Of a stretch of DNA of 64,000 bases, positions 28,145 to 59,521 are shown piece by piece. Position 1 is the first letter of the stretch, and each line of letters begins with the position of its first letter. Source of the stretch: Petrimonas mucosa (GTDB lineage Bacteria; Bacteroidota; Bacteroidia; Bacteroidales; Dysgonomonadaceae). The stretch spans positions 1,481,001 to 1,545,000 of the forward strand of contig NZ_LT608328.1 of assembly GCF_900095795.1 (NCBI RefSeq). The letters are read 5' to 3'. Both the position numbers and the translations under genes were made by a program. Below the pieces are notes generated by a model that worked only from the letters and a program-made list of their open reading frames with translations, was not told the origin of the DNA and did no database searches.

Positions 28145-29335
28145 ATGAGAAATATTGAATATTATATTATCGCATTTTTATCTGTCATTACATTTTTGCG
28201 TTGCAAAGATATGAATTCTACTTACTTGGAGTATCTTGAAGGTGGCGAAATAATTTATGTAAGTAAAGCTGATTCTCTTGTGGCTCGTTCCGGATTAAAT
28301 AGTGTAACACTTTCGTGGATACCTGGGGTTGACAATAAAGCGGTATACGCTAAGATCTATTGGAATAATCGAGAAGATTCGATGGAATACAATATCCCAC
28401 CAAATCTCGATCGTATAAATGTTTCCATTGCTCTTCCCGAAGGTGCATACTCTTTCGAAGTATTTACTTTTGATGCATTAGGTAATAAGTCGATCGCGGC
28501 AACAGCAGAGGGCTCATCTTATGGTGATTACTACATGTCAACTTTAACTGACAGAGTAATCGAACGTTCCTCTTATAGGGTTATACATTGGGGTGAGCCT
28601 TATAATAATATGGCTGGAGTAGAGGTAGTATATAAAGATTTTGATGGTAAACTGAAAAAATTGTTCGTGAAGAATACCGAAAGTTATACGATTATTCCTG
28701 ATTATAAATATTATTCGGAAATTCAATACAGAACTTTCTACTTTCCTGATGAAAATTCGGTTGATACATTTTTCACAGATTTTAAAACCGTAACACTTGA
28801 CAGTATTGTCGATAGTAGTTGGTTTTTAAGATGGAATAACGAATTCTTTCCCTATAAACAGTTCGGTACTTATCCAATTGAACGAATGTGGGACGGTAAT
28901 ACAAATGCTGATTTCGGATATGTTTGGGAGGATGCGGTACTTCCAGCAAGTATTACTTTCGATATTGGTCAATTAGCTATATTGAAGAAAATGAGATTAT
29001 TTTCCCATTATAATCCGTCTTTTCTGTACAAATATGGACATCTTAAACATTTTCAAGTATGGGGATCTCAAAATCCTAATGCATCATCGGCATTTGAAGA
29101 TTGGATTTTTCTTGGTGAATTCAACTCACACAGGCCATCCGGTTTAGCTGATAATATTGCCCCAACACCCGAAGATCTGGCTTATGCCTCTCAAGGTGAG
29201 TATTTCAATTTAAATCAGACAAACACGGAGATACGATATATTCGTATAGTAGTGTTGTCAGTTTATAGTGGCTCAACAGCATACTTCCCTAGAATTAATA
29301 TAACTGAACTTACGTTCTGGGGAGATGTAAGATGA
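28145..29335 (+). CDS. Surface protein with DUF4998-like and discoidin-like domains
   Basis: Protein of 396 aa with a hydrophobic signal ending in LRCKDM, a plausible lipobox. The first domain (about 30-130; SGLNSVTLSWIPG, KAVYAKIYWNN) looks like DUF4998. A middle part follows, then a C-terminal discoidin-like beta sandwich (about 240-396; ASITFDIGQLAILKKMRL, EIRYIRIVVLS). It ends in FWGD as its neighbour ends in FWGN, and the two proteins share the same C-terminal layout, so they are probably a pair binding related parts of the glycan. Spacing of 11 bp to the preceding gene supports one operon. Confidence 0.75.
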   Translation: MRNIEYYIIAFLSVITFLRCKDMNSTYLEYLEGGEIIYVSKADSLVARSGLNSVTLSWIPGVDNKAVYAKIYWNNREDSMEYNIPPNLDRINVSIALPEGAYSFEVFTFDALGNKSIAATAEGSSYGDYYMSTLTDRVIERSSYRVIHWGEPYNNMAGVEVVYKDFDGKLKKLFVKNTESYTIIPDYKYYSEIQYRTFYFPDENSVDTFFTDFKTVTLDSIVDSSWFLRWNNEFFPYKQFGTYPIERMWDGNTNADFGYVWEDAVLPASITFDIGQLAILKKMRLFSHYNPSFLYKYGHLKHFQVWGSQNPNASSAFEDWIFLGEFNSHRPSGLADNIAPTPEDLAYASQGEYFNLNQTNTEIRYIRIVVLSVYSGSTAYFPRINITELTFWGDVR

Positions 29336-29379: not shown

Positions 29380-30582
29380 ATGAACAGACGTAAATTTATG
29401 CAATCTGCAGTAATAGGTGCCACAGCGATGACTGTGGCACCGAGACTTGCTTTTTCCCAAAGTAAATTGACAAAAAACAAGGTAAGAATTGGAATTATTG
29501 GTGGTCGATTCGGTGCTGGATTTCACTTTCATGATCATCCTGATTGTATTGTAGAAGCAGTTTCAGATCTTATTCCGGAGAGGCTACAGAAATTGAAGAC
29601 TGTATATAAGTGTGATAAAAGTTATCCAAGTCTCGAAAAACTCATTAAAGATCCAAAAATTGATGCCGTTTTCATTGCTACAGGTGCACCCGATCATGCA
29701 AGACATGTGATTGCTTCCTTAAAAGCGGGCAAACATGTATTATGCGCTGTGCCTGCTGCAATGACGCTTGAGGAATGTGATGATATACTGAATGAGGTTA
29801 AAAGAACAGGGTTAACATACATGATGGCAGAGACAAGTGTATGGAGACAAAGTATGATTTCCGTGAAAAAATTCTATAAGGAAGGTGCTTTTGGGAATAT
29901 TATGAGTTATGCTGCTCAATATAATCATCCAGGACTCGAATCATTGTATATTGAGAATGGCAAAAAAACCTGGCGTTATGGATTGCCGCCAATGTTATAT
30001 CCTACACACTGCACTGGTTTTGTTGTGGGTCTTACAAAAGAACGACTAACCGAGGTTACTTGTATTGGTTGGGGAGATAATGATCCTGTTCTGAGAGATA
30101 ACCAATATAATAATCCGTTCTGGAATGAGTCAGCACTATTCAAAACGAATAAAGGACTGTCTTTTCATATGGAGGTAAATTGGAAAGGAGCTTTAAGAAG
30201 TGCGGAGCGTGGAGAATGGCATGGTGATGCGATGAGTGTTGTAATGTCTCATGGAGCAGGATCCAATACAGTATTGGTAAAGGCTGGTGAGAAGATCGTT
30301 AAAGATGAAGGCGGCTTTAATGTGAAAGCTAATACAGTGGAGCAGTTTACAATTCCTAAGTGGTGGGAAACAGATATGTTGCCTGAATCATTGCGTTACA
30401 ACAGCGGACATGAAGGCTCACATACTTTTATCACGCATGAGTTTATTGATTCAATTATTAATGACAGAACGCCAGAAGTGGATATATATCAGGCTCTTGC
30501 AATGACTGCTCCTGGAATTGTGGCACATCAATCTGCTATTAAAGGTGGTGAACTGTTAAAAATACCTTCTTTTGATAAATAA
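29380..30582 (+). CDS. Gfo/Idh/MocA-fold protein with Tat signal, GH109-like
   Basis: NAD-binding protein of 400 aa with a twin-arginine signal (NRRKFMQ at 2-8, then a hydrophobic stretch), so it is exported folded with cofactor. The Rossmann part begins VRIGIIGGRFGAGF. In typical dehydrogenases of this fold GKHVLCEKP supplies a catalytic lysine. Here the loop is KHVLCAVPAA (119-127), so the lysine is absent. To my recollection GH109 glycosidases, which use NAD to cleave N-acetylgalactosaminides, also carry a VP loop in this place. The C-terminal part has YPTHCTG and THEFIDSIINDR. A redox role on a sugar is the alternative. A shorter paralogue without the signal lies at 48502-49644. Confidence 0.75.
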   Translation: MNRRKFMQSAVIGATAMTVAPRLAFSQSKLTKNKVRIGIIGGRFGAGFHFHDHPDCIVEAVSDLIPERLQKLKTVYKCDKSYPSLEKLIKDPKIDAVFIATGAPDHARHVIASLKAGKHVLCAVPAAMTLEECDDILNEVKRTGLTYMMAETSVWRQSMISVKKFYKEGAFGNIMSYAAQYNHPGLESLYIENGKKTWRYGLPPMLYPTHCTGFVVGLTKERLTEVTCIGWGDNDPVLRDNQYNNPFWNESALFKTNKGLSFHMEVNWKGALRSAERGEWHGDAMSVVMSHGAGSNTVLVKAGEKIVKDEGGFNVKANTVEQFTIPKWWETDMLPESLRYNSGHEGSHTFITHEFIDSIINDRTPEVDIYQALAMTAPGIVAHQSAIKGGELLKIPSFDK

Positions 30583-30636
30583 TTCATGAATGTGAAATTA
30601 CAAAAAAAGAAAAATAAATTTACCCAAATTGACGTT

Positions 30637-32325
30637 ATGATTAGATCATCAATATATATCTTAATTTATATTATATCATTTTCTCTTTGCTCTTGTAAAA
30701 TGCAAAGTAGTGCATTACATGTTGCGTCAAAAAAGAAGATTCCAGTAATATATTCTTCAGTTGAAGGAATTGAAATTGAAAGAGGAAAGAAATTATTGAG
30801 TTCTTTTTTTATGGATAGAGAGTTGGAGAGTGATTTAATTGAATTGAATGCTTTATCATCTTTTGAGAAGAATAAAGCTTATATTATTCTTGAGACACTT
30901 GATAATCACCCCCTTTCTGATATTTTTGGATTGGATTTAATGGGATTGAGCAATTCTCATTCGGAATCACACATGATAAAAGCATTCTCATCTCACAATG
31001 GTGGGGATTTTATTTTTGTTGTTGGTAAAGATGCGGATGGTGTTGAATCTGGGATTCATTATTTATTTAGTAAATTGAATTGTAACCTTACTGGAAATAA
31101 TTGGAGAATATATTGTCCTGTATTTGAAGAAATAAGGAAGCCATTTTTTTCGATACGTGAGGCTACGCTCTGTCCTACGGGGAGAGCCATCCCTGATAAT
31201 CCAATGATTAATTATGAAAATTGGAACTCGGAACGTTTATCACGTTATCCATCATTTTTAAGATCTTGTGGATTTAACTCCTTACAATTAATGGAATTAA
31301 TCACATATAATGCTTCAACCGGTGAATGGCAAGGAGGATATCGTGGTGGATTACCGAAAGATAAAACAATTGATGATATTGAAAACGTATTAAAAACGCT
31401 AATTGACGAAGCACATAATGAGGGGATGAGAGTTAGCCAGTATATTTGGGGATCGCCAGCAGATGGCAACAAATGGGACGATATTAGAACGAGACCTAAA
31501 AGACAAGAATTTTACAAAGAACTGGCTAAACGTTACGGGGAAAAAGTAGATCACATAATCACTCACTGGGTAGATGAAGGGACAGAAGGAGGTTATGAGA
31601 CGCCATTAACGGCAACCATGTTTATCTGGAATGAATATAAAAAATACAATCCAAATGTTCAGGTTACTTGTGATGCATGGTTTAACAAAGATTTGTATAA
31701 CGGAATTTCATCTGAAAAGTATGCTAGTAAAGATGTAGCAATAGCTATTGAAAGGTGGTATAATAAAGAGCGGGCTGAACAGATTCAAAATTCTGGCCGT
31801 AAAGTAGGTATCTGGGGATGGTATTTAAGTGATTTTGAGATGACTTATGGGCCGAATATTTATACTAAAACATTAGATAAATATTATACAGACTTACCCG
31901 AAGAAGCAAGTGTTCAAGTTGACTGGATTTCTTCAGAACTATGTTTTCACGGTTTACCATCTAGGATAAACATGTATGTAGTGGGACGTAAAATGTGGAA
32001 TCCAAAAACACCATTGGAAAATATTTTATATGATTATTGTAAGGCAATGTATGGAGAACCAAACGCTGATAACATGAAATTTATTTATGAAACAGTTGAG
32101 GAAGGTCAAAAAGAAGTACGTTACGGGATGGTTGAAAAAGATCGTTATGCTAATGTTTTAGAAACACTTGAATTTCAAGAAAAAGTTGATCTGGCTTTAA
32201 AAAAAATTGATGAAGTTCGAATTTCACCACATTGGATATCGAATTTCTCTGACATAGCTTCGGTCCATGATGATATTATCAATCTTAAAACGTGGTTGAT
32301 AGAATTTAAACAACAAATACAGTAA
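30637..32325 (+). CDS. TIM-barrel glycosidase-like lipoprotein, family not recognised
   Basis: Lipoprotein of 562 aa. ATG at 30637 is preferred over 30586 because MIRSSIYILIYII leads straight to a lipobox (SLCSCK). An N-terminal alpha/beta domain (about 40-180; FIFVVGKDADGVESGIHYLFSKL) resembles the accessory domain before GH20, GH67 and GH84 barrels. The barrel part (about 185-500) has FNSLQLMELI, GMRVSQYIWG and IITHWVDEGTEGG with candidate catalytic acids (D, E), then VTCDAWF and VGIWGWYLSDFEM. The sequence does not match any one family that I know. It follows the GH109-like gene closely, and the two may act on the same linkage. Confidence 0.6.
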   Translation: MIRSSIYILIYIISFSLCSCKMQSSALHVASKKKIPVIYSSVEGIEIERGKKLLSSFFMDRELESDLIELNALSSFEKNKAYIILETLDNHPLSDIFGLDLMGLSNSHSESHMIKAFSSHNGGDFIFVVGKDADGVESGIHYLFSKLNCNLTGNNWRIYCPVFEEIRKPFFSIREATLCPTGRAIPDNPMINYENWNSERLSRYPSFLRSCGFNSLQLMELITYNASTGEWQGGYRGGLPKDKTIDDIENVLKTLIDEAHNEGMRVSQYIWGSPADGNKWDDIRTRPKRQEFYKELAKRYGEKVDHIITHWVDEGTEGGYETPLTATMFIWNEYKKYNPNVQVTCDAWFNKDLYNGISSEKYASKDVAIAIERWYNKERAEQIQNSGRKVGIWGWYLSDFEMTYGPNIYTKTLDKYYTDLPEEASVQVDWISSELCFHGLPSRINMYVVGRKMWNPKTPLENILYDYCKAMYGEPNADNMKFIYETVEEGQKEVRYGMVEKDRYANVLETLEFQEKVDLALKKIDEVRISPHWISNFSDIASVHDDIINLKTWLIEFKQQIQ

Positions 32326-32555
32326 CATTACTGACATTGTAGTTAAACATGTCTGTTTAGAGGATTAGTTGCACCCTGATTTAACCAGAAAATTGTAGGT
32401 GAAATAAGTAAGATCAAACTACCTATCATATACAAAAAATAATGATATGAATATTAAAATAATCTATAAGTAGAAGAATATCAGTTATATATGTGGTAAA
32501 TATAATAGGATGCTTTAAACACCTATACCTAAGTGTTTAATTGCATATAAATCAT

Positions 32556-34556
32556 ATGGAAATCAACAAAAATACAACTATTATACTACAAGGAAAAAGA
32601 ATATACCTGTGCCTGGCTTTTCTAGTCTCCCTATTTATGGTGACACTACACGGTTGTGGGGATGAGAAAATTCCTGAGACTGAAAAAACCGAGTTTCGCA
32701 TCACAGGAATCTCACTCCCTACTAGCCTGGAAATCAGGAAAAATGGGGAGATCACCCTTACAGGGAAAGGATTTGAAGTAGGAGACCTGATAAATTTTGT
32801 TGTTTTTAATGATGAAAACAGCAAATTCTCGACGAAGGTGCTTTCAGTAACGAGTCAATCGGCACTCTTCAAGCTGCCGGTTAACCTATCGTCAGGTACA
32901 TATAGTCTTTCGGTCACCAGGGATAGCCAAACACTCACACTAGGTACTATCCAGATCATTATTATAGCTGATAATGACATCCCCGACAATGCCATTCCCG
33001 ATATACAGGGGATGACGGTAAAGGGGGTGGTCTATTGTGATGATGAGGGTATTCCCGGGGTAGTGGTTTCTGATGGGTACGAGGTCACCATAACCGACGA
33101 GAACGGTATTTACTACCTTCCTTCTGACAAACAGAGCGGGTATATCTTCATCTCTGTACCCGGTAACTATGAGGTCCCTAACAATAAAAATCTACCACAA
33201 TTTTATCAGCGGCTTGCAGGAGGAAGTAAGGTGGAACAGATAGATTTCTCCCTGATCAAGGTAGACAATTCAAACCACGTAGTACTGGCTATGGCTGATT
33301 GGCACCTGGCAAACCGGACAAATGACTTGGAACAGTTCACCAGCGGCTTTCTAGTTGACGTAAACAACATTATCCGGGATTACCAATCGAAAGGGGTGAA
33401 AGTTTACGGGTTGACACTCGGGGACATGAGCTGGGATCGATACTGGTATGATAATTCTTTCGCATTGCCTGAATATCTCACCATGATGAACAAGATTAAC
33501 TGCCCCATATTCAACGTGATGGGCAATCACGACAATGATCCTTACATCTCAGGGGACTGGGCATCAGAACAGACTTTCAAAGACATTGTGGGACCTACAT
33601 ATTACGCATTCAACCTGGGAAAGATACACTATATTGTCTTAGACAACATCGAATACATAAATTTGGGTGGTGCTCAGGGGGTCGTGGGACAGCGAAATTA
33701 CAACAAAACTATTGTACAGCGACAAAGGGTGTGGTTGAAAAGGCACCTTGCTACGATTGAGGACAAGGACACACCGATCGTGATCGGTATGCATGCTCCC
33801 TTGCACGGACGTGTGAAAGTGGACAACAATGGTAGTTACCAGCCAAAAATCACAATGGAGAATGGAGATCTCCTGGTATCAGACCTTTCGGGATTTTCCA
33901 ATGTACATCTTCTTACTGGTCACTCCCATATCAATTATGCCGTAAATGCATCCTCCACATTGATGGAACACAACATCGGTGCAGTATGTGCCACCTGGTG
34001 GTGGACCGGATCGAACGGTTATGCCGGCAATCATATCTGTAAAGATGGTAGTCCCGGTGGTTACAGTGTATGGGAATTGAATAATAGGGAGATCGAATGG
34101 TATTACAAAAGCATCGGGTATGATAGAACCTATCAGTTCAGGGCATATGACCTGAACACGGTACATATCACTGCCGCAACACATGCACCGAACTCTAGTG
34201 ACGTGTTGCTGGCTCCCTATGCGAAAGAGTATGCCACTCCCGGAAACCTAAACGAGGTATTGATCAATGTGTTCGGATACGATGATGAGTGGGAGGTAGA
34301 GGTGAAAGAGAACGAGAACATGCTTGAGGTGAAACGGGTGAAAACTCATGACCCTCTGCACATCATTTCCTACACGGCGCTTAGACTTAATGACGGAGCC
34401 GAACCAAACTTTGCCACCCATAATACCTCTCACATGTTTAAAGCGAAAGCAGCCAGCGCCACCTCTTCACTTCAAATAACAGTAAAAGACCGCTTTGGAA
34501 ATATCTATTCCGAAATAATGGAGCGACCCAAAGCTTTTACTTATTCCATGAAATAA
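32556..34556 (+). CDS. Calcineurin-like phosphoesterase lipoprotein
   Basis: Secreted metallophosphoesterase of about 666 aa from ATG 32556; an upstream TTG at 32541 is less likely. Signal and lipobox end in LHGCGDE. An Ig or IPT-like module covers about 45-135, then a MetallophosN-like beta domain (VKGVVYCDDEGIPGVVV), the metal-binding core and a C-terminal beta domain. Core motifs are MADWHLA (D, H), LTLGDMSWD, VMGNHDND, IGMHAPLHG and LTGHSHIN. The substrate is unknown; removal of phosphate from a glycan is possible. Base composition is visibly less AT-rich than in the genes before it, and a 230-bp gap precedes it, so it may start a new transcription unit or be a separate acquisition. Confidence 0.88.
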   Translation: MEINKNTTIILQGKRIYLCLAFLVSLFMVTLHGCGDEKIPETEKTEFRITGISLPTSLEIRKNGEITLTGKGFEVGDLINFVVFNDENSKFSTKVLSVTSQSALFKLPVNLSSGTYSLSVTRDSQTLTLGTIQIIIIADNDIPDNAIPDIQGMTVKGVVYCDDEGIPGVVVSDGYEVTITDENGIYYLPSDKQSGYIFISVPGNYEVPNNKNLPQFYQRLAGGSKVEQIDFSLIKVDNSNHVVLAMADWHLANRTNDLEQFTSGFLVDVNNIIRDYQSKGVKVYGLTLGDMSWDRYWYDNSFALPEYLTMMNKINCPIFNVMGNHDNDPYISGDWASEQTFKDIVGPTYYAFNLGKIHYIVLDNIEYINLGGAQGVVGQRNYNKTIVQRQRVWLKRHLATIEDKDTPIVIGMHAPLHGRVKVDNNGSYQPKITMENGDLLVSDLSGFSNVHLLTGHSHINYAVNASSTLMEHNIGAVCATWWWTGSNGYAGNHICKDGSPGGYSVWELNNREIEWYYKSIGYDRTYQFRAYDLNTVHITAATHAPNSSDVLLAPYAKEYATPGNLNEVLINVFGYDDEWEVEVKENENMLEVKRVKTHDPLHIISYTALRLNDGAEPNFATHNTSHMFKAKAASATSSLQITVKDRFGNIYSEIMERPKAFTYSMK

Positions 34557-34567
34557 ATAAACTACAT

Positions 34568-35956
34568 ATGAATTGTTTTGTTGGTATAGATATTGGAACG
34601 AGTGTTACAAAATGTATTTTGATTTCGCAGAGTGGTAAGATATTATCTCACATAAAGAAGTCTAATATCTATATATATGGTAGTTCAAATCGAGTAGAAT
34701 TCAGTGTCGATGAGAGGTACGAGAGTATTTGTTCATTGCTTAGAACTTTATTATTGAAAAAGCCCGAAGGAGCGAGCGTATTGGCGATCTGCATTAGTGG
34801 TGCAAGCGGGAATGCTTTGCTACTGGATGGATCCAGAAAACCATTAACGAACGCAGTAAGCTGGCTTGATGAGAGAGCGAATTCCTCATTCGAAACTCTT
34901 TTAACTCCATTTTCCTCTCACTATATATACGCTATCACCGGGTGGCCCAGAATATCATCCTTTCCATTAGTCTATTTTTCCTGGATGAAAGAGAATGAAC
35001 CGGAAGTTTATCATTCAGCAACCTATCGGGTTACAGACTTCGTTTATTACAATTACAGATTGACTAACAATTGGTTTATTGATACCTCTACAGCAACAAA
35101 TAGCTATCTCCTGGATCAAAAAAAGATGCAATATCATCAACCCTTCCTTGATTATCTGGATATTAAAAAAGAGAGCTTGCCCGAGATCGTCAAGAGTGGG
35201 ACACCCATCGGTTTTGTCACAAAACAGGCCGCAGACGAAACACACTTACCGGCTGGGACCCCTGTAATTGCGGGGTCGTTTGACCACCCGTCTGCAGCCA
35301 GAGGAACAGGCATGACACAAGTTGGAGATTTACTTCTATCATGTGGAACATCCTGGGTGGGGTTTTGTCCGGTTGATAACCGCGATAAAGCGCTGAAAGA
35401 AGATTTACTTGTTGATCCCTTTTTATTTCCCGATGGTCCCTGGGGAGCAATGTTTTCTTATGCAGGCCTGGGAAACATTATAAATGAATATCTCGATATC
35501 TTGTCGAAAAGAACGAAGTTTGGATTGTCAAAATTTGACGAAGAGATCAAGTCTTGGAATCTTAGAGAAAATAAATGCCTTTTCAATATCCTGCAAAAGG
35601 ATATTTTTCCAGAAGCATATATTGACTATCTGATGGAAAGTTTCAATGTAAAGGAAATATACAAATCAATGATCGGATCTGTTTGTGCGATCATGGAGGA
35701 TAAAATATCTCATTTTCAACATTCCAGCAACAGAGTAAATCAAATAACCATGGTAGGTGGATATTCAAAAAGCAAGTTTTGGCCCCAGGTTTTATCCAAT
35801 TACCTCGATATGCCAATTTCTTTAAATAATTGTGAATTTGCAGGTTGCATAGGAGCAGTGATGTTAGCCGGAATGGGTGTTGGTCTATTCGAAAATGAAT
35901 CTGACGCTTACAGGAAATTGCATATTACATCCACACAACTAACACCAAACTCTTGA
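34568..35956 (+). CDS. FGGY-family carbohydrate kinase
   Basis: ATP-dependent kinase for a ketose, polyol or related sugar, 462 aa. The N-terminal phosphate-binding loop is VGIDIGTSVTKC, and a second motif is ICISGASGNALLLD. The presumed catalytic base lies in AGSFDHPSAARGTG near residue 238, and LLLSCGTSWVGF is nearby. The ribonuclease H-like C-terminal domain has MVGGYSKSKFWPQVLS. It is slightly shorter than xylulokinase (about 490). It starts 11 bp after the phosphoesterase and ends 4 bp before the symporter, within one tight operon. Substrate cannot be read from sequence; the adjacent FucI-like isomerase suggests a ketose. Confidence 0.9.
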   Translation: MNCFVGIDIGTSVTKCILISQSGKILSHIKKSNIYIYGSSNRVEFSVDERYESICSLLRTLLLKKPEGASVLAICISGASGNALLLDGSRKPLTNAVSWLDERANSSFETLLTPFSSHYIYAITGWPRISSFPLVYFSWMKENEPEVYHSATYRVTDFVYYNYRLTNNWFIDTSTATNSYLLDQKKMQYHQPFLDYLDIKKESLPEIVKSGTPIGFVTKQAADETHLPAGTPVIAGSFDHPSAARGTGMTQVGDLLLSCGTSWVGFCPVDNRDKALKEDLLVDPFLFPDGPWGAMFSYAGLGNIINEYLDILSKRTKFGLSKFDEEIKSWNLRENKCLFNILQKDIFPEAYIDYLMESFNVKEIYKSMIGSVCAIMEDKISHFQHSSNRVNQITMVGGYSKSKFWPQVLSNYLDMPISLNNCEFAGCIGAVMLAGMGVGLFENESDAYRKLHITSTQLTPNS

Positions 35957-35960
35957 TGAT

Positions 35961-37682
35961 ATGGAAAAGCTATCACATTTCAATCTGGTTTTCTTTGATT
36001 ATCTATCATTTGCATTATACATCTTGCTGCTTTCCTTAATTGGTTACTATTTCGGGAAGAAAAAAAAGCAAGATTCTTCCGATTATTTCCTTGCTGGTCG
36101 GACATTGCCATGGTACGTTGTTGGAAGTTCCTATATTGCATCAAACATCAGCACCGAACATTTTATCGGTATGGTTGGTGCTGCATTTGTATATGGTATC
36201 TGCGTTGCAATGTCTGAGTGGGCAAATGTAGCTTCCTTCTCACTCTTGATATGGGTGTTCATCCCATTTCTGATGTCTGCAAAAGTGTTCAGTACACCTG
36301 AATTTCTGGAGAAAAGATTCAATTTGTCTGTGCGCCAGTTTTTTGCAGTTGTTACAATTGTGAGCAATATTATCGCCTTTCTTGCAGCCGTACTTTATGG
36401 TGGTGGTATTGTAATTCAGCAATTGTTTAATATCAACTTGTGGACTTCAATCATTATTATTGGCCTGATTGCGGGAGTATGGTCAATCTATGGTGGTCTT
36501 AAGTCGATAGCCTGGATGGATGTCTTTACCGTTGTTGTGATGGTTGTAGGTGGGTTATTGGTGACAATTCTCGGCCTGTATATGCTCTCCGGTGAAGATC
36601 ACTCCCTGGTAAGCGGTTTTAAGGTTATGCTTGAAAGAAATAGTGCTCAGACAGGTATCTGGAAAGAGGTTGTTGAAAAAAACATCCACAATATGGTTGG
36701 CACAGATCACTATTCCAGGTTATCTCTAATCCAGCCGGTCTCACATCAAGTTTCTCCGTGGCCAAATCTTATTTTGGGGGTTTTTACAATTAGTATCTGG
36801 TACAACGCATTGAATCAATTTATGATTCAAAGAGTGTTGGCAGCTAAAAGCAGTTATCACGCGCGGATGGGTATCGTTTTTGCCGGTTACCTGAAAGTAT
36901 TGTTACCGGTTATTGTGGTATTGCCGGGTTTGATCCTGTTTGCCCGATATCCTGATGTCCTGAATCTTCCATGGCCTGAAATCAGACCTGAGGCGGACAA
37001 AGGATATATCGTGTTGCTTCAGACATTGGTGCCCGCAGGTCTTCGTGGATTATTTATTGCATCCTTATTTGGTGCCGTGCAATCCACGGTGAGTGCCGTA
37101 CTGAATTCTACCTCGACCGTATTTACACTGGATGTGTACAAACGAATGTTCAGAAAGAACGAACTTGATTCGCATTATGTAAGAATTGGGAGATGGTCCT
37201 CTTTTGTTATCATCATAGTGGCGATTGTGCTGGCTGGCTTCATAGGAAAATTAGGTGGCAGTTTGTTTGTGTACATCCAGACATTGTATGCGTTTTTCGC
37301 ACCCCCTTTTGCTGCAATCTTTGTTTTGGGAATACTTTTTAGGAGGATCAACGGAAAGGGGGCTATTGTGTCCATCACTGTAGGATTCATCTTCAGCATA
37401 CTGTTGAAAATCTATATTCAGTACGATGCCGCTGCACCCTCATGGTTAACTCCTTTCCAGATGCAAGCTATTGTAAGCTGGCTGTTGTGTGTGATTGTTT
37501 GTGTAGTGGTGAGCTTGCTGACAGAAAAGCCGAGAGCAGAGCAGGTGACTGATGATTTGACAATCAATTGGAAGAAGATAAATATTTTCGAGGATCTGGG
37601 CAATAAATGGTACAAGAGCGTCATTTTATGGTGGCTGATTTTTGTCCTTCTGGTAGCATGTTTGGTGATAATATTCTTTTAA
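35961..37682 (+). CDS. Sodium/solute symporter (SSS family)
   Basis: Inner-membrane Na+-coupled importer, 573 aa, with about 13-14 hydrophobic helices. The family signature is near the start: SSDYFLAGRTLPWYVVGSSY followed by ASNISTEHFIGMVG. Mid-protein GLRGLFIASLFGAVQSTVSAVLNS is the other typical SSS stretch. A soluble insertion of about 40 residues lies around 210-250. Given its place between the kinase and the isomerase, it most likely brings the free sugar released in the periplasm into the cell. Confidence 0.93.
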   Translation: MEKLSHFNLVFFDYLSFALYILLLSLIGYYFGKKKKQDSSDYFLAGRTLPWYVVGSSYIASNISTEHFIGMVGAAFVYGICVAMSEWANVASFSLLIWVFIPFLMSAKVFSTPEFLEKRFNLSVRQFFAVVTIVSNIIAFLAAVLYGGGIVIQQLFNINLWTSIIIIGLIAGVWSIYGGLKSIAWMDVFTVVVMVVGGLLVTILGLYMLSGEDHSLVSGFKVMLERNSAQTGIWKEVVEKNIHNMVGTDHYSRLSLIQPVSHQVSPWPNLILGVFTISIWYNALNQFMIQRVLAAKSSYHARMGIVFAGYLKVLLPVIVVLPGLILFARYPDVLNLPWPEIRPEADKGYIVLLQTLVPAGLRGLFIASLFGAVQSTVSAVLNSTSTVFTLDVYKRMFRKNELDSHYVRIGRWSSFVIIIVAIVLAGFIGKLGGSLFVYIQTLYAFFAPPFAAIFVLGILFRRINGKGAIVSITVGFIFSILLKIYIQYDAAAPSWLTPFQMQAIVSWLLCVIVCVVVSLLTEKPRAEQVTDDLTINWKKINIFEDLGNKWYKSVILWWLIFVLLVACLVIIFF

Positions 37683-37698
37683 CGAATTGAAATTTATT

Positions 37699-39099
37699 AT
37701 GTATTCACAAGATAAAATGAAACTTAAGGTTGGTTTATTGCCGCTCTATTTAAATATGTACGATGAGATAATCCCGGAAGTGAAAATTGAACTGAACTTA
37801 TTTCTCAAGAGAGTTACTGATCTACTTACTCAACGCGGAATCGATGTGGTATCAGTAGATATCTGCGGGGTTTCTCGTGAATTTGAAACAGCTATTAATC
37901 AGTTTGAAAATGAAAATGTTGACTCTATCGTGACATTGCATTTGGCATATTCCCCATCCCTGGAGTGCATAGATTCTCTCTGTAAGACAGAATTACCAAT
38001 TGTTGTGATGGATACGACAAGGGACAAGAAATTCGATTCCATTTCGCTTTTAATGTACAATCACGGGATTCATGGGGTTCAGGATATGTGCAATTTGCTC
38101 CTGCAAAGGGGGAAGACTTTTTTTCTTGAAGCTGGACATATTGATTCATCAGATGTTGTAATTAGAATTATTCAACACGTTAAAGGGGCCAGAATCGCCA
38201 AAGAGTTCAAGTCTTCCCGGGTCGGGCAGATCGGAGAAAGCTTCGAGGGAATGGGAGACTTTGTCGTTGAACCCAAAAGGTTAGCGTCTGACTATGGAAT
38301 CCAAATAATAAAAACATCTCCTTTGCAGTTAGAGAGTTATTATTCAACTGTAAATAAACACGATATCTTTGAGGAGATGCAGAATAACATAAAAGAATAC
38401 GATTTGACTCAGGTATGCGATGAATCTCATTATTTGTCTACTCAAATAGGACAAGTGCTCAAGAGATGGATCAGTAATTACGGGTTAACCGGATTTACAA
38501 TTAATTTCAAAGCCGTCAGGAAAAATAGCGGTTTACCAATGATGCCTTTTTTTGAGATTTGCAAATTAATGAAAAACGGAAAAATCGGCTATGCTGGAGA
38601 AGGTGATATTTTAACTGCAGCATTAACAGGAGCATTGTCAAGAGTCTTAAATGAATGTTCTTTTGCGGAGATGTTTTGTCCTGATTGGGAAAACGATACA
38701 ATTTTTCTTAGTCATATGGGTGAAATTAATTTTGAGATTATTGAAGATAAAGCCAAACTAATAGAAATGGAATGGCTTTTCACAGATGCCGATCGTTATT
38801 TATCTCCCTCAGCCTGTTTTAAAAGTGGAGAAGCAACACTCGTATGTTTAGCACCCAAATCGGGTGGCAATTTTTCTTTGATAACAGCTCCTGTTGTCAT
38901 GTTAGATGACTACTATGGTGAATCTTTTGGCGATGGTATAAGGGGATGGATGAAACCTTCGATTCCTGTTCCTGAATTTTTGAAAAAATATAGTGAAGCT
39001 GGCGGTATTCATCATATGGCCATCGTTTATGGAACACACCTGATGACCTTAAAGACATTTGGGGAAATTATGAACTGGGATGTAATTGAAATAATTTAA
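37699..39099 (+). CDS. L-fucose/L-arabinose isomerase-like protein
   Basis: Member of the FucI/AraA-type aldose-ketose isomerase superfamily, 466 aa from ATG 37699 (TTG at 37687 is the longer alternative). The N-terminal half is Rossmann-like (VGLLPLYLNMYDE, VDSIVTLHLAYSPS), and the central part has GEGDILTAALTGAL, the metal and active-site region in this superfamily. The C-terminal barrel ends IHHMAIVYGTHL. It is divergent from true FucI (about 590 aa) and closer to the shorter, poorly studied group. It lies between the symporter and the amidohydrolase with gaps under 20 bp. Likely converts the imported aldose to a ketose for the FGGY kinase. Confidence 0.75.
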   Translation: MYSQDKMKLKVGLLPLYLNMYDEIIPEVKIELNLFLKRVTDLLTQRGIDVVSVDICGVSREFETAINQFENENVDSIVTLHLAYSPSLECIDSLCKTELPIVVMDTTRDKKFDSISLLMYNHGIHGVQDMCNLLLQRGKTFFLEAGHIDSSDVVIRIIQHVKGARIAKEFKSSRVGQIGESFEGMGDFVVEPKRLASDYGIQIIKTSPLQLESYYSTVNKHDIFEEMQNNIKEYDLTQVCDESHYLSTQIGQVLKRWISNYGLTGFTINFKAVRKNSGLPMMPFFEICKLMKNGKIGYAGEGDILTAALTGALSRVLNECSFAEMFCPDWENDTIFLSHMGEINFEIIEDKAKLIEMEWLFTDADRYLSPSACFKSGEATLVCLAPKSGGNFSLITAPVVMLDDYYGESFGDGIRGWMKPSIPVPEFLKKYSEAGGIHHMAIVYGTHLMTLKTFGEIMNWDVIEII

Positions 39100-39105
39100 A
39101 AGAAT

Positions 39106-40149
39106 ATGAAGAAGGTAATAGAAATCAAAAACGTGGATATCAACTTATATCACTCCATCATCAAAAACTTTCTGCCTGAGGATATAATCGATATACATAC
39201 ACATGTCTTTATTAAAGAACATCACCTTATCAACCAAGAGAATAATGCCAGGTTGGCCCGGTGGCCGGAGCGTGTGGCTGAAGAAAATCCGATTGAAGAT
39301 TTAATAGAAACATACCAATTGATGTTCCCGGGTAAAAAAGTATCTCCATTGATATTTGCTTATCCCATGAATCTGAAATATATTGAATTAGCAAATAAAT
39401 ATATTGAAAACTGCTGCAGGAACAATTCACAATGCTACGGGTTGCTTTTAACAAAACCTGAATGGGATGAGTTTTTTTTAGAAGAACAACTGCTTAGTGG
39501 TGGCTTTTATGGAACAAAAGTGTATTTAAACTTCGCACCACAAGGAATTCCGAAAAATGAGATCTCAATTTTTGATTTTCTACCTCATCATCAATTGACC
39601 CTGCTGAATAAACGCGGGATGATTGTTATGCTACATATTCCCAGGGATAACAGATTGAAAGATCCAATCAATTTGATGCAGATAATTGAAATTGAGAAAA
39701 AGTATCCTGATATCAAACTGATTATCGCCCATGTAGGTCGTGCTTATTGTCGCGAAGATATTGGTAATGCATTTGAGGTTTTATCTGTGACCAATAATGT
39801 GTTGTTTGATTTCAGTGCAAATACAAACCAGTCTGTCTTTGAACATTTGATAAAGTCAGTTGGGGTGAAGAGAATACTTTTTGGGAGTGATTTGCCTATC
39901 ACTCGTATGCGTATGAAGAGGATATGCGAGAGTGGAACTTATATCAATATCATACCAAAGGGTTTGTATGGCGATATCTCAGATGATAAACATATGAGGG
40001 AAGTGGAAGGAGAAGAGGCCGGGCAGTTGTCTTTCTTTTTGTTTGAAGAGATCATGGCTTTCCAGAAAGCAGCCGTCGCGACTCATTTGAAAGATAATGA
40101 TATTGAAGATATTTTCTTTAATAACGCCAGAAGAATATTATCCATATAA
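39106..40149 (+). CDS. Amidohydrolase-superfamily metal-dependent hydrolase
   Basis: TIM-barrel hydrolase of 347 aa. Metal-binding motif DIIDIHTHVF lies near residue 25, then a histidine strand (VMLHIPRDN), LIIAHVGRAYC near 205 and the last Asp in RILFGSDLPITR. This is the pattern of the amidohydrolase_2 group, which includes lactonases such as 2-pyrone-4,6-dicarboxylate lactonase and several decarboxylases. In a sugar operon a lactonase role after oxidation of a sugar by a Gfo/Idh enzyme would be plausible, but this is inference. It begins 6 bp after the isomerase gene. Confidence 0.8.
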   Translation: MKKVIEIKNVDINLYHSIIKNFLPEDIIDIHTHVFIKEHHLINQENNARLARWPERVAEENPIEDLIETYQLMFPGKKVSPLIFAYPMNLKYIELANKYIENCCRNNSQCYGLLLTKPEWDEFFLEEQLLSGGFYGTKVYLNFAPQGIPKNEISIFDFLPHHQLTLLNKRGMIVMLHIPRDNRLKDPINLMQIIEIEKKYPDIKLIIAHVGRAYCREDIGNAFEVLSVTNNVLFDFSANTNQSVFEHLIKSVGVKRILFGSDLPITRMRMKRICESGTYINIIPKGLYGDISDDKHMREVEGEEAGQLSFFLFEEIMAFQKAAVATHLKDNDIEDIFFNNARRILSI

Positions 40150-40184
40150 TTATATTATACAATTCACAAATAAAAATTAAAACT

Positions 40185-41000
40185 ATGAACGGGAAACAGC
40201 TCAGAATTGAGAAATTATTTAACAAAAGCGAGAATGCAGTTATTGTTGCAATAGATCACGGAATGTTTGATGGCCCTATCCCTGGGATGATCAATATGAA
40301 AGAAACGGGTGAGAAAATAGATTCATCAATAGATGGAGTTCTATTAAGTCCGGGGATGTTGAAACATCTTCGGCCCGTATTTAATTACAAGGGAGCCCCC
40401 ATGCCTATTGTGAGATTGAACTGGAGTTCGGTCTATTGTTTCCACTGGGATTACAACAATGCTTACACGACAATCGCTCAAATGGCGGATGATGCAGTTG
40501 CAAATGGCGCTGAAATTGTTTTGGTTTCACTCACCTTACAAACTGGAAGTGAGAAGAATGACACTGATAATGTAAAGATATACAGTCATTTGGTCAATGC
40601 TGCTGATAAACTGGGTATTCCTGTAATTGGAGAATATTTCCCAACCCACTCAAGTGAGTTGACTAACGAGCAAATGCATGAACAGGTCTTCACAAGTTGC
40701 AGAATACTTAGTGAATTAGGATGTGACATGATTAAAACATTTTACACACACAAATTCAAAGAGGTCACAGAAAGTTGCCCTGTTCCTGTATTCGGACTTG
40801 GTGCAGAAAAAAAACCAACCCAGCTTGAAGCACTTCAACTGGCTTCAGATGAAATCAGAGACGGGGCAAAGGGTGTGGTCTTTGGAAGAAATGCTATTCA
40901 GGTTGCCAATCCTATAGCTTTTCAAAGAGCTTTATGTGATGTAGTAAAGAATAATCTTGATCCAATAAAAGCAATTGCTAAATACAACATCAAAGATTAG
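40185..41000 (+). CDS. Class I aldolase of the DeoC/DhnA/LsrF type
   Basis: Schiff-base aldolase of 271 aa. Strand 1 has VIVAIDHGMFDGPIPG with the conserved Asp-His. Lys184 in DMIKTFYTHKF is in the position of the Schiff-base lysine of the DhnA-type aldolases. The C-terminal phosphate-binding part is GAKGVVFGRNAIQ. Family members cleave fructose 1,6-bisphosphate or related 1-phosphates, or act as LsrF thiolase on phosphorylated AI-2. It is expected to split the ketose phosphate made upstream into dihydroxyacetone phosphate and an aldehyde or acyl unit. Confidence 0.85.
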   Translation: MNGKQLRIEKLFNKSENAVIVAIDHGMFDGPIPGMINMKETGEKIDSSIDGVLLSPGMLKHLRPVFNYKGAPMPIVRLNWSSVYCFHWDYNNAYTTIAQMADDAVANGAEIVLVSLTLQTGSEKNDTDNVKIYSHLVNAADKLGIPVIGEYFPTHSSELTNEQMHEQVFTSCRILSELGCDMIKTFYTHKFKEVTESCPVPVFGLGAEKKPTQLEALQLASDEIRDGAKGVVFGRNAIQVANPIAFQRALCDVVKNNLDPIKAIAKYNIKD

Positions 41001-41038
41001 ATAATTAATATTTAAATGTTTATTGATTCAATATATAA

Positions 41039-41644
41039 ATGCATAATTCAACAAAATCGGAGATCATTAGTAAGGCAAAAGAATCTCTCCGTATTGAAAG
41101 TAAAGCCATAGCTGATATTATTGATTATCTGGACCAGGATCGCTTCTATGACGCAGTAGAAATATTGAGCAACTGTCCCAAGATAATTACCTGTGCAAGT
41201 GGTTCATCAGGAATTGCCGCAAAGAAATTTGCGCACTCCCTGTGTTGCATTGAACGAAATGCGCAGTTTCTCTCTCCTGCGGAAGCCATCCATGGTGGGA
41301 TGGGCTGCATGAAGAAAGGGGATGCTGTTGTGATGGTCTCACGTGGTGGAAAGACGGCTGAGTTGCTTCCCATCATCGATGTTTGCAACAAAAAAGAGGT
41401 GATATTGATTGGGATCACGGAAAATATGAACTCACCACTGGCAAGGCAGTCACAAATCGTGATCCCAATGAAAATCGAACGTGAGAGTGACCCGCTAAAC
41501 GTAATGGCAACCTCAAGCTTTGTGGTAACCATAGCCATCTTCGACGCTATGTTGGTTGCGGTGATGGAGACAACGGGATATCGGCTGGAGCAATTCGCAC
41601 TCATTCACCCGGGCGGAGCTGTCGGAAACAGGTTAAACAAGTAA
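41039..41644 (+). CDS. SIS-domain sugar-phosphate isomerase (KpsF/GutQ-like)
   Basis: Single SIS domain protein, 201 aa, without the CBS pair of full-length KdsD/KpsF enzymes. The phosphosugar-binding loop is CASGSSGIAAKKFAHSL, the second motif is VVMVSRGGKTAELLP, and HPGGAVGNRL is the C-terminal signature of arabinose-5-phosphate isomerases. Members interconvert aldose and ketose phosphates. With a FucI-like isomerase already present, this second isomerase argues for an additional phosphorylated intermediate. It starts 38 bp after the aldolase. Confidence 0.85.
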   Translation: MHNSTKSEIISKAKESLRIESKAIADIIDYLDQDRFYDAVEILSNCPKIITCASGSSGIAAKKFAHSLCCIERNAQFLSPAEAIHGGMGCMKKGDAVVMVSRGGKTAELLPIIDVCNKKEVILIGITENMNSPLARQSQIVIPMKIERESDPLNVMATSSFVVTIAIFDAMLVAVMETTGYRLEQFALIHPGGAVGNRLNK

Positions 41645-41657
41645 CAATAAATGAAAT

Positions 41658-42356
41658 ATGTATAAAGGAATAACCATCAAACCCCCATTCTTTGAAATTG
41701 GGCCCAAAGCATTTATGTACGGTGAACGAATGTTGCAGCTGGCAAAAGCGGCTGATGAGGCATCGGCTAAGTATGACGTGCGAATCATACTAACACCTCA
41801 ACCGTCGGATATTTACCTGTTGGCAAAGGAAACCAGCCATCTGCTCATCTTCGCGCAACATATGGATCCGATTACTGTAGGAAGAGGACTTGGGTCCATA
41901 TTGCCTGAAGCTGTAAAAGCAGCCGGAGCAGTAGGCGTAATGCTGAACCATGCAGAAAAACCAATGACCACAGCCGATTTGTATAAAGCGATTAAGAGAG
42001 CCCATGAAACAGGCCTGGCCACTATTGTCTGTGCCGATTCCATCAAAGAAGCAGAAGCAATTGCTCATTTATCGCCTAACATCATTGTGGTTGAACCAAC
42101 CGAACTCATCGGCACGGGTGTAACCAGTGATAAGGAATATGTAATCGCTACCACATCTGCTATCAAAAGAATAAATTCTGAAATACAAGTACTGCAGGCA
42201 GCCGGCATAAAAAATGAACAAGATGTATACAACGTAATGAAAGCCGGTGCTGACGCTACCGGAACTACAAGCGGTATTATGAAAGCGGAAAATCCGGAAG
42301 AAATGCTGGAGAAGATGATACGGGCCGTTCGAATTGCATGGGATGAATTACATTAA
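41658..42356 (+). CDS. Triose-phosphate isomerase-like protein (short, divergent type)
   Basis: Protein of 232 aa with the catalytic pair of triose-phosphate isomerase: His68 in FAQHMDP and Glu146 in VVEPTELIGTG. Phosphate loop GADATGTTSGI also resembles short archaeal-type TIMs. The N-terminal NxK of standard TIM is replaced by ITIKPPFFEIGPK. Bacteroidota normally carry a housekeeping tpiA of about 250 aa elsewhere, so this is presumably a pathway paralogue. It may convert dihydroxyacetone phosphate from the aldolase or, like the erythrulose-phosphate isomerases related to TIM, a four-carbon phosphate. Spacing to the SIS gene is 13 bp. Confidence 0.85.
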   Translation: MYKGITIKPPFFEIGPKAFMYGERMLQLAKAADEASAKYDVRIILTPQPSDIYLLAKETSHLLIFAQHMDPITVGRGLGSILPEAVKAAGAVGVMLNHAEKPMTTADLYKAIKRAHETGLATIVCADSIKEAEAIAHLSPNIIVVEPTELIGTGVTSDKEYVIATTSAIKRINSEIQVLQAAGIKNEQDVYNVMKAGADATGTTSGIMKAENPEEMLEKMIRAVRIAWDELH

Positions 42357-42390
42357 CAAAACGCATTTATAAATTAAAAAAAAGAAGAAA

Positions 42391-42891
42391 ATGAAACTTT
42401 ACAGAGGAACAATTGAATTGCAGTCTAAGGATCACAGACCCGATTTTCACAATGTAACAGAGGGTGTGAAAAAAATCGTGGAAGAATCAGGTGTAAAAAA
42501 TGGAATATGTGTTGTTTATTCACCCCACACAACCTGTTCCGTGATCACCCAGGAATGCTCTCACGATTTGAACTTTTTTGGCAGGGAATACCTGCAACAG
42601 GATTTGAACAACATCATGGAAAAATTGGTGCCAACTTGCAGGACCGAAGGTCAGTACCTGCATCCCGGGCCCAAACACATCGAATTTGCCCTTACTTTCC
42701 CTGACGAGGAACCCAAGGGAAGCCTAAATACAGATGCGCACCTACGCTCGGTATTTTTTGGACGTTCAGAAACTATTCCATTGGTTGATGGTAATCTCTC
42801 GTTGGGCGACTTTGGTTTTATCTATTTCATCGACTGGGATCAGATACGTGAACGAAAAAGAGTTTGTGAGGTGCAGATTATTGGTGAATAG
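42391..42891 (+). CDS. YjbQ/UPF0047 family protein
   Basis: Small enzyme of 166 aa of the YjbQ family, which has been reported to show weak thiamine-phosphate synthase activity and is otherwise uncharacterised. Motifs are SPHTTCSVITQEC with the conserved His, TDAHLRSVFFGRSETIPLVDG and LSLGDFGFIYF. The His and other polar residues form a metal or phosphate site in solved structures. Its place as last gene of the sugar-phosphate operon, before a terminator, suggests a role in that pathway rather than thiamine supply. Confidence 0.87.
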   Translation: MKLYRGTIELQSKDHRPDFHNVTEGVKKIVEESGVKNGICVVYSPHTTCSVITQECSHDLNFFGREYLQQDLNNIMEKLVPTCRTEGQYLHPGPKHIEFALTFPDEEPKGSLNTDAHLRSVFFGRSETIPLVDGNLSLGDFGFIYFIDWDQIRERKRVCEVQIIGE

Positions 42892-42916
42892 TGAAATTTA
42901 TTTCACCATTTTAGCT

Positions 42917-42950
42917 TACACCTGATTTTCTCAAGTCAGGTGTAGTTTTT
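42917..42950 (+). terminator. Intrinsic terminator ending the sugar-phosphate operon
   Basis: ACACCTGA (42918-42925) pairs perfectly with TCAGGTGT (42936-42943), extended by one T-A pair, and is followed by TTTTT at 42946-42950. It lies 25 bp after the YjbQ stop and separates the operon from the E2 gene. Confidence 0.8.
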
Positions 42951-44331: not shown

Positions 44332-44386
44332 TAGGACAATAAAATTATAAGTTAAGCATTAATCATTAATCGCTGACTGCTGATCA

Positions 44387-44432
44387 CTGAAAGCTGAAAG
44401 CTGGAAACTGACAACTGACCGCTAATCGCTAG
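44387..44432 (+). repeat. Degenerate CTGAAAG heptad repeat, left arm flanking lpdA
   Basis: Runs of ACTGAAAGCTGAAAGCTG then AACTGACAACTGACCGCTAA. The reverse complement of nearly the same sequence lies at 45824-45853, just after the lpdA stop, so the pair forms inverted repeats around the gene. The rest of the 138-bp gap is also built of similar short words (TTAATCATTAATCGCTGACTG). Confidence 0.6.
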
Positions 44433-44469
44433 AAATTAATCATTTGACAACAAAAAAATATTTACAATT

Positions 44470-45826: not shown

Positions 45827-45853
45827 CGGTCAGCTTTCAGCTTTCAGTTTTTT
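45824..45853 (-). repeat. CTGAAAG heptad repeat, right arm flanking lpdA
   Basis: On the minus strand it reads AAAACTGAAAGCTGAAAG followed by CTGACCGCTAA, matching the left arm at 44387-44432. It begins at the lpdA stop codon. Confidence 0.55.
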
Positions 45854-45941
45854 TGGGAATAAACTTTGCTCATCCAGCGGAATGGAAGTTAGTAATCTAA
45901 CAAACAATCAATAAATCTAACAATCAAACAATCAATATCAA

Positions 45942-48401
<2,460 letters not shown>

Positions 48402-59470: not shown

Positions 59471-59521
59471 ATAAAGACTTTCGTGCTTGTTCATCTCATT
59501 GATAAGTTGTATCTTTACACC

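Follow-up and report, generated by a model that had tools for sequence, protein, structure and literature searches.

A 64,000-nucleotide stretch of the Petrimonas mucosa genome (contig NZ_LT608328.1, positions 1,481,001 to 1,545,000; termed "the window" here) contains eight closely spaced genes at positions 34568–42891, which code for an FGGY kinase, a sodium:solute symporter, an AraA-like aldose-ketose isomerase, an amidohydrolase-superfamily enzyme, a DhnA/LsrF-type class I aldolase, an SIS-domain sugar-phosphate isomerase, a triosephosphate isomerase (TIM)-like protein, and a YjbQ/UPF0047 protein of a long type. In our preferred reading, to which we assign a probability of roughly 45%, these genes make up the cytoplasmic part of a SusCD-type operon for the use of a glycan or glycoside, and the ketose phosphate formed has two exits, namely cleavage by the aldolase, or a relay of the TIM-like, YjbQ and SIS proteins. 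The operon is real and recurring, with a gene set that has apparently not been described; we regard it as a ketose-phosphate catabolic operon, of a known general kind, with a possibly new enzyme function inside.

All eight open reading frames lie on the forward strand, in agreement with a preliminary description of this region, with intergenic gaps of 4, 4, 6, 35, 38, 13, and 34 nt in the order from the kinase gene to yjbQ. The kinase (34568..35956) exceeds the Pfam cut-offs for the FGGY_N and FGGY_C domains (FGGY_N, 151 bits) and the symporter (35961..37682) that for SSF (219.7 bits), as do the amidohydrolase (39106..40149; Amidohydro_2), the aldolase (40185..41000; DeoC/LacD), the KpsF/GutQ-like SIS protein (41039..41644; SIS), the TIM-like protein (41658..42356; TIM) and YjbQ (42391..42891; UPF0047) for their respective families, so that these family calls stand. 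The isomerase (37687..39099, TTG start), previously called FucI-like, is indeed a sugar isomerase, but AraA-like fits better: it comprises PF24856 (AraA_central) and PF11762 (Arabinose_Iso_C), whereas Fucose_iso_C was matched only below the Pfam cut-off. NCBIfam cut-offs were passed by none of the kinase, isomerase, amidohydrolase, aldolase and SIS proteins, and the symporter passed that of a superfamily model only. The GC content is 37.1% for the upstream genes, 36.3–41.5% from the kinase to the aldolase gene, 43.1–45.9% for the SIS, TIM-like and yjbQ genes (yjbQ, 43.1%) and 53% for the gene of a pyruvate dehydrogenase-type E2 protein further downstream, which suggests separate blocks within the region.

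Genome contigs were scanned for relatives of the isomerase, and the neighbourhoods of the best 80 of 174 relatives (L003–L082; 38–51% identity) were compared. Homologues of the amidohydrolase are encoded within 8 kb of the isomerase gene in 59 of the 80 loci (within 300 bp in 47), and kinase homologues in 46; both occur together in 38. TIM-like and yjbQ genes were found within the same distance in 15 loci each, the aldolase (≥50% identity) in 12, the SIS protein in five, and the symporter in four, while only four loci were devoid of any partner. Loci with homologues of isomerase, amidohydrolase and kinase side by side carry the labels Paenibacillus, Clostridia, Spirochaetales, Chlamydiota, Armatimonadetes, Acidobacteria, and Chlorobiota; in the clostridial locus L075, the gene order is amidohydrolase, isomerase, TIM-like, yjbQ, kinase, SIS, and a second yjbQ. 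Since amidohydrolase and kinase genes accompany the isomerase gene in these 38 loci, and a Bacteroidales metagenome-assembled genome (MAG) again contains all eight families, the clustering is not due to chance. The proposal that the cluster is a conserved sugar-phosphate catabolic unit, with the amidohydrolase, the SIS isomerase and YjbQ as genuine partners, is thus borne out; lack of co-occurrence elsewhere, which had been named as grounds for abandoning it, is the opposite of what the neighbourhood comparison found. The aldolase (12 loci) and the TIM-like/YjbQ pair (15 loci) never share a locus among the 80, and because of this the aldolase on the one hand and the TIM-like, YjbQ and SIS proteins on the other look like two exits.

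In the Bacteroidales MAG (G465, the genome behind L003), one contig carries the genes of the SIS, TIM-like, YjbQ and kinase proteins, SusC, SusD, a DUF4959 protein, a DUF4998 protein, a Gfo-type oxidoreductase, the symporter, the isomerase and the amidohydrolase, in this order; a second contig carries the amidohydrolase and aldolase genes followed by genes of an OCD-family protein and a DeoR-type regulator (the latter label assigned by eye). Because the two contig ends show an exact overlap of 127 bases inside the amidohydrolase gene, G465 appears to have a single operon comprising all eight families together with the SusCD genes, in a gene order that differs from that of the window. Identities to the window proteins are 92% (YjbQ), 80% (TIM-like), 78% (SIS), 76% (aldolase), 68% (symporter), 51% (isomerase), and 47% (kinase), and 47% and 62% for the N- and C-terminal parts of the amidohydrolase, respectively. 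The SIS-TIM-yjbQ set is present three times in G465, behind different kinase genes, and forms a portable module. The two further sets (L140 and L141) follow genes of FGGY kinases only 22–23% identical to the window kinase, in nearly parallel clusters which also code for a DHDPS-family lyase, a major facilitator superfamily (MFS) transporter, NagA- and NagB-like proteins and a ceramidase-like protein; of these, L140 alone was scanned against family models, and the MFS labels were assigned by eye. These two clusters are perhaps involved in N-acyl sugar catabolism.

The routes for L-fucose, L-rhamnose and L-arabinose proceed via FucI-FucK-FucA, RhaA-RhaB-RhaD, and AraA-AraB-AraD, respectively. 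They share with the cluster an aldose isomerase of the AraA/FucI kind, an FGGY kinase, and an aldolase or epimerase acting on the phosphorylated ketose; the cluster differs in that its isomerase and kinase score far below the curated cut-offs, its aldolase is of the class I DhnA type, and amidohydrolase, SIS, TIM-like and YjbQ proteins are additional. The isomerase reached 61.2 bits towards the AraA equivalog NF002795 (cut-off 622) and 24.6 bits towards the sulfoquinovose isomerase SftI (NF048012, cut-off 700), and neither a FucI nor a RhaA model was among its NCBIfam matches. For the kinase, XylB was the best-scoring model (181.7 bits, cut-off 380.25), followed by FucK (110.3 of 470.9) and RhaB (65.8 of 527.95), and it is not an AraB by curated cut-offs either. 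Identity of isomerase and kinase with a known FucI/FucK or RhaA/RhaB pair, the other outcome considered fatal in the preliminary description, thus did not materialise; conversely, assignment of a known sugar via NCBIfam was rejected, as the scores were under the cut-offs. The isomerase residues E305, E328, H343, and H442, invariant in 25 sequences, align with the Glu/Glu/His/His metal site of AraA chains, where we take them to be the metal ligands; because these four residues are kept, the protein should be an active aldose-ketose isomerase, as judged from its alignment. In the kinase, 29 residues including D239 are invariant in 24 sequences (that of the window included). Among 60 relatives of the host, the best match to the isomerase was only 24% identical (E 2e-37), with up to 29% in weaker, partial matches, and so the locus is, by this measure, sporadic within the host lineage; matches at E ≤0.001 were present in 28 of 61 genomes, host included.

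In the amidohydrolase, H31, H33, H177, H209, D262, K138, R183, and R212 are invariant in 31 sequences, and the structure was predicted with a model pLDDT of 94. Naming the reaction from the predicted structure was attempted and abandoned, since the 50 nearest chains shown, which comprise gamma-resorcylate and dihydroxybenzoate decarboxylases, LigJ hydratase, PDC hydrolase and others, are just 10–18% identical and hence too distant; the invariant lysine and arginine residues hint at an anionic substrate only. The aldolase retains K184 (≥95% conserved in 16 sequences) at the position of the Schiff-base lysine of DhnA/LsrF class I aldolases, a role which K184 presumably fulfils. Its scores are below the equivalog cut-offs for LsrF (130.1 of 297 bits), ADH synthase (138.6 of 299.45), and archaeal FBA (96.6 of 430).

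The TIM-like protein belongs to the short archaeal type: it passes the cut-off of PRK04302 (201.8 bits, cut-off 132), but not that of the tim equivalog, and the host carries a separate canonical TIM (324 bits, as compared to 70 for the cluster protein) with the motif GNWKMN. In an alignment with 1hg3, G15 of the window protein takes the place of the asparagine, and K17 that of the lysine, of the N-x-K motif. K17, H98, and E146, which we assume to be the catalytic lysine, histidine and glutamate, are kept in all 33 TIM-like sequences compared (window included), whereas the position of the asparagine is occupied by glycine in 25 of them (the window protein and 24 others) and by asparagine in eight. 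These eight (L150, L157–L163) are the TIM-like proteins of eight clusters with a phosphotransferase system (PTS) and a class II aldolase. On the basis of the residues, the split would fit genuine TIM-type catalysis where an aldolase is at hand, and a larger substrate for the proteins from clusters with a kinase, SIS protein or HxlB. The SIS protein of the window scores 127.6 bits towards the arabinose-5-phosphate isomerases KpsF/GutQ (TIGR00393, cut-off 203.7) and 38.6 bits towards HxlB (TIGR03127, cut-off 160). KpsF and GutQ have a pair of CBS domains at the C-terminus; the window protein consists of an SIS domain only. Its nearest sequence relative of known structure is 3fxa (201 aa, E 9.9e-50), deposited as "SIS domain protein" with no function in its name.

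The tie of long-type YjbQ to TIM-like and SIS proteins is close. The window protein passes TIGR00149 (86.6 bits, cut-off 67.75), and its fold matches 2p6c at E 4e-17 in a Foldseek search, as expected of a YjbQ protein. This search retrieved 17 chains at E ≤0.001, 14 of them from entries also matching by sequence and three from 2cu5, a conserved hypothetical protein; all hits below this threshold were YjbQ-type or hypothetical proteins, which gave no clue to the chemistry. With long-type YjbQ defined by a tblastn score >110 bits, 39 distinct copies were counted over the loci collected, and all 39 have a TIM-like gene (34) or an SIS gene (6) no more than 500 bp away. Scans based on YjbQ only, with the two centre genomes left out, yielded 13 copies in 13 genomes, each with a TIM-like gene 15–70 bp away, as compared to none of 29 loci (2.0–3.4 kb) of ordinary, short YjbQ proteins from the host's phylum, which lacked TIM-like and SIS matches. 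Within this phylum, some YjbQ is present in 173 of 395 genomes, but only that of the host exceeds 48.3 bits; long-type YjbQ (E ≤1e-25) was found in 3 of 296 genomes in the phylum of a Spirochaete locus, and in 12 of 398 in that of a Firmicute locus.

The contexts of these pairs vary. Fructose-type PTS genes occur with genes of TIM-like, YjbQ, HxlB and Rpe proteins in L170 and L172, and the short locus L171 codes for an EI-like protein, TIM-like, YjbQ, a SIS protein of HxlB length, and an Rpe-like protein. L167 reads TIM-like, yjbQ, hxlB, rpe, SIS, a DeoR-type regulator and the isomerase; L169 codes for a kinase, a zinc dehydrogenase, TIM-like, YjbQ and SIS; and L165 for SIS, an SftI-like protein, a kinase, YjbQ, TIM-like and a class II aldolase. 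In L166, L173–L178 and L191, the TIM-yjbQ pair accompanies a class II aldolase gene and PTS genes of the galactitol or glucitol type; L191, a glucitol-type cluster, also codes for a DRL-type oxidoreductase (PF21135; L191:4701–6023). The labels of the L175 and L176 aldolases (with starts nearly identical to that of L174), of the PTS IIA and EI parts, and of the DeoR/GntR regulators were given by eye; those of SusC, SusD, SusE-position, class II aldolase and PTS permease proteins elsewhere held on family scanning. The HxlB proteins beside YjbQ exceed the TIGR03127 cut-off of 160 in L170 (207.7 bits), L172 (205.1), and L167 (196.5), and the Rpe proteins exceed their cut-off of 212.6 in L170 (230.8) and L167 (239.4). 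HxlB, the 6-phospho-3-hexuloisomerase, recalls the ribulose monophosphate pathway; however, HxlA scored over its cut-off in none of six genomes tested, for which no completeness is given (weak matches occur in all six, the best being 139 of 200 bits in G455), and the window has a KpsF-like SIS protein. The presence of HxlB without an HxlA over the cut-off suggests that these genomes may have another source of 3-hexulose-6-phosphate.

Taken together, these data would be accommodated by the following pathway. The symporter would import the released compound, and the amidohydrolase would catalyse a metal-dependent step which leaves an aldose; the isomerase would convert the aldose to the ketose, and the kinase would phosphorylate the latter, most likely at C1. 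Cleavage of the ketose phosphate by the aldolase may then yield dihydroxyacetone phosphate plus an aldehyde, or, alternatively, the TIM-like, YjbQ and SIS proteins, acting in series, may pass the sugar chain intact into glycolysis or the pentose-phosphate pool. As to how such a relay could work, a rather speculative and on balance doubtful possibility is that long YjbQ is a sugar-phosphate keto-isomerase which acts after the TIM-like enzyme. A kinase or PTS would provide a ketose-1-phosphate; the TIM-like enzyme, made roomier by the replacement of Asn by Gly, would treat it as TIM treats dihydroxyacetone phosphate and shift the carbonyl from C2 to C3, and YjbQ would shift it by one more carbon, to give a 2-ketose-5-phosphate from a pentose or, if a hexose is counted from its opposite end, a 3-ketose-6-phosphate. 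SIS would complete the pentose route, and HxlB and Rpe the hexose route; because the carbonyl would move stepwise, one step (YjbQ) would separate TIM from the usual pool in the former, and two (YjbQ and HxlB) in the latter.

Several points weigh against this pathway. The 80 isomerase loci were found by peptide patterns of the isomerase and hence are not a random sample, and many of the contigs are short; the mutual avoidance of the aldolase and the TIM-like/YjbQ pair is confounded by phylogeny as well as by the short contigs, and both the window and G465 possess both. Part of the 39 long YjbQ copies were reached via the isomerase or the TIM-like protein, which biases the sample, and the short-YjbQ control stems from the host's own phylum, whereas the long copies mostly come from others. 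In L165, a class II aldolase is encoded close to a TIM of the Gly type, which weakens the Asn/Gly split, and no SIS gene was seen in the eight PTS loci L166, L173–L178 and L191, so that not every such relay would end in SIS. Two long YjbQ copies occur in L070, L071, L072, L075, and L144, a duplication for which the stepwise carbonyl shift does not account; in L071, L072, L075, and L144, one copy is located beside TIM and the other beside SIS. Xylulokinase, whose model matched the kinase best, phosphorylates C5 and not C1, and the amidohydrolase step remains without explanation in the proposed pathway. Finally, the substrate, the site of phosphorylation, the activities of all eight gene products, the order of the steps and the chemistry of YjbQ are predictions from sequence. 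D-apiose was considered as a candidate sugar and is so far neither favoured nor rejected; a D-apiose isomerase is named in PMC13001218.

Among the other explanations, the linear chain envisaged in the preliminary description fares best, albeit as an unlikely one: isomerase and kinase would yield a ketose-1-phosphate, the aldolase would split this into dihydroxyacetone phosphate and an aldehyde, and TIM would merely convert dihydroxyacetone phosphate to glyceraldehyde-3-phosphate, leaving SIS and YjbQ as accessories. All enzymes required are encoded and their catalytic residues are kept, and the eight TIM-like proteins which retain the asparagine, being encoded beside class II aldolases in PTS clusters, indicate that the family can work next to aldolases. 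The window protein, however, is one of the 25 of Gly type among the 33 compared, and the host already has a canonical TIM, which speaks against conversion of dihydroxyacetone phosphate as the role of the cluster protein; none of the 15 isomerase loci with TIM-like/YjbQ genes has a DhnA aldolase of ≥50% identity in the DNA covered, which disfavours a single chain even though the window and the MAG have both sets of genes; and the constant link to YjbQ would be left unexplained.

A route for an amine-bearing sugar or amino-polyol also appears improbable for the window. Here, a class III aminotransferase, together with alanine dehydrogenase, would generate an aldose, the amidohydrolase would remove an acyl-like group, and the isomerase and kinase would follow, with the window representing a variant that obtains the deaminated sugar elsewhere. 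Class III aminotransferases are indeed encoded within 8 kb of the isomerase gene in 31 of the 80 loci; a divergent one of about 519 aa was observed in 20 loci and a second one (456 aa) in 13, for example in L004, L008, L015, L042, and L073. Three Paenibacillus loci contain an alanine dehydrogenase gene, the operon of G465 contains one for an OCD/mu-crystallin enzyme, and NagA- and NagB-like genes are present in L140, L141, and L072. These genes around the isomerase or the SIS-TIM-yjbQ set hint at amine-bearing sugars in other bacteria. Nevertheless, the operon of the window showed no gene for an aminotransferase, a deaminase or an OCD protein, and aminotransferases and TIM-like/YjbQ genes share none of the 80 loci, although this separation, like that of the aldolase from TIM-like/YjbQ, may be driven by phylogeny. 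Moreover, the Nag labels were partly given by eye: the NagB-like protein of L140 scores 47 bits (cut-off, 237), and Amidohydro_1/3 are the only families matched by its NagA-like protein and by that of L072.

That YjbQ is a secondary thiamine-phosphate synthase serving the thiamine pyrophosphate-dependent pyruvate dehydrogenase encoded downstream, with the TIM adjacency incidental, is very improbable. YjbQ does score over the TIGR00149 cut-off, and E2, E3 and E1 genes do follow at 42976–48401, with E1/E2-like genes near the TIM-yjbQ pair in L177 (the same locus as L162) and one resembling E1 at a distance of 8.4 kb in L169, but outside the window these two are the only loci, many of them short, with E1, E2 or E3 within 10 kb of a long YjbQ, all 39 long copies adjoin TIM-like or SIS genes, the dehydrogenase genes of the window lie behind a terminator-like stem and differ in GC content (E2, 53%; yjbQ, 43.1%), and a 2021 paper lists YjbQ as being of unknown function (PMC7954711).

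In addition to the routes for common deoxy sugars and pentoses, the preferred pathway resembles the erythritol route of Brucella, in which EryA is a kinase of the FGGY type. As in the cluster, the kinase is followed by isomerases including a TIM homologue; the route comprises EryA, the dehydrogenase EryB, EryC, EryH and EryI (= RpiB), and it ends in D-erythrose-4-phosphate (PMC5992420). The passage describing it names EryH (= TpiA2) a D-3-tetrulose-4-phosphate isomerase, followed by the RpiB-type EryI (PMC5992420); EryH thus sets a precedent, in which the substrate of a TIM homologue is a ketotetrose phosphate. The route differs in that, in the passage concerned, an RpiB and not an SIS protein is employed, YjbQ is not named, an aldose isomerase is missing, and the substrate has four carbons. 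The TIM-like protein of the window is set apart from EryH by its short archaeal type and its glycine in place of the asparagine, and not by direct sequence comparison. The SftI-type sulfo-TAL pathway contains an isomerase distantly related to that of the window, and L142 resembles this pathway in having a weakly matching Fucose_iso_C protein and a TAL_FSA protein encoded beside the SIS, TIM-like and yjbQ trio. A search of the open-access literature (titles and beginnings of abstracts, with subscription journals mostly outside its range) revealed, among the papers listed, neither a gene set like that of the cluster nor a role of YjbQ in sugar metabolism.

The operon is larger than eight genes. 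The kinase gene begins 11 nt after a gene of a calcineurin-like metallophosphoesterase (MetallophosN/C; 32541..34556), downstream of SusC, SusD, DUF4959, DUF4998 and Gfo/Idh genes, and position 34568, previously taken as its limit, thus is not the operon start. The linked uptake locus, all on the forward strand, starts with a SusC-like TonB-dependent receptor (20214..23051; Plug and CarboxypepD_reg) and continues with a SusD-like lipoprotein (25033..26919; SusD_RagB, 201.7 bits), a DUF4959/DUF5126/DUF5000 protein in the SusE position (26955..28133; in L139, SusD is likewise followed by these three domains), a second SusE-position protein with DUF4998 and DUF5000 (28145..29335; both domains also present in L003), and a Gfo/Idh/MocA oxidoreductase (29380..30582) with a twin-arginine-like N-terminal signal as judged by eye, a 36% identical homologue of which precedes the symporter in L003. 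Next is a gene of a 579-aa, probably secreted protein of no assigned family (30586..32325; lipoprotein-like N-terminus by eye), for which Pfam, NCBIfam and PDB sequence searches yielded no match; among 296 genomes, one distant homologue was found outside the host, encoded next to a Gfo/Idh gene whose product is 62% identical to that of the window. Since neighbouring homologues of SusC and SusD are encoded together with catabolic enzymes, the region qualifies as a SusCD-type polysaccharide utilisation locus, though an open reading frame for a DDE transposase (23141–24658, Pfam) intervenes between susC and susD, which are directly adjacent in L139; this reading frame may split the transcription of the two genes.

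At the other end, a stem of 13 pairs with a T-rich tail (42916..42945, forward strand) follows yjbQ. It had been called a clear terminator; it does have the most pairs among the 14 terminator-like sites found, but just four are G-C pairs, and the number of sites is not clearly above the mean of shuffled sequences (11.2, sd 2.9). Downstream of it are the pyruvate dehydrogenase-type E2, E3 and fused E1 genes (42976–48401). The beginning of the E3 gene looks frame-shifted (44470–44618): in the frame of the E3 gene, the sequence for the conserved N-terminal portion continues without a stop ahead of the TTG listed as the start, whereas a plausible ATG at 44470 lies in another frame. Transposases of the Mutator, IS110, IS982 and IS66 types surround the locus (13313–14518, 53009–54271, 56904–57815, and 59483–61039).

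In TIGR00149, the name given to YjbQ/UPF0047 proteins is "secondary thiamine-phosphate synthases", in spite of the listing of YjbQ as functionally unknown. The finding that every long YjbQ copy examined is encoded beside a TIM-like or SIS protein, often with kinase or PTS genes, provides a testable role that can be assayed directly with few candidate substrates. Should the relay prove true, unusual ketose phosphates would enter central metabolism without aldol cleavage, and if the carbonyl is shifted stepwise as outlined, any ketose-1-phosphate could enter uncleaved, and UPF0047 would gain a natural reaction. The occurrence of the isomerase, amidohydrolase and kinase genes across several phyla points to a common but unrecognised sugar.

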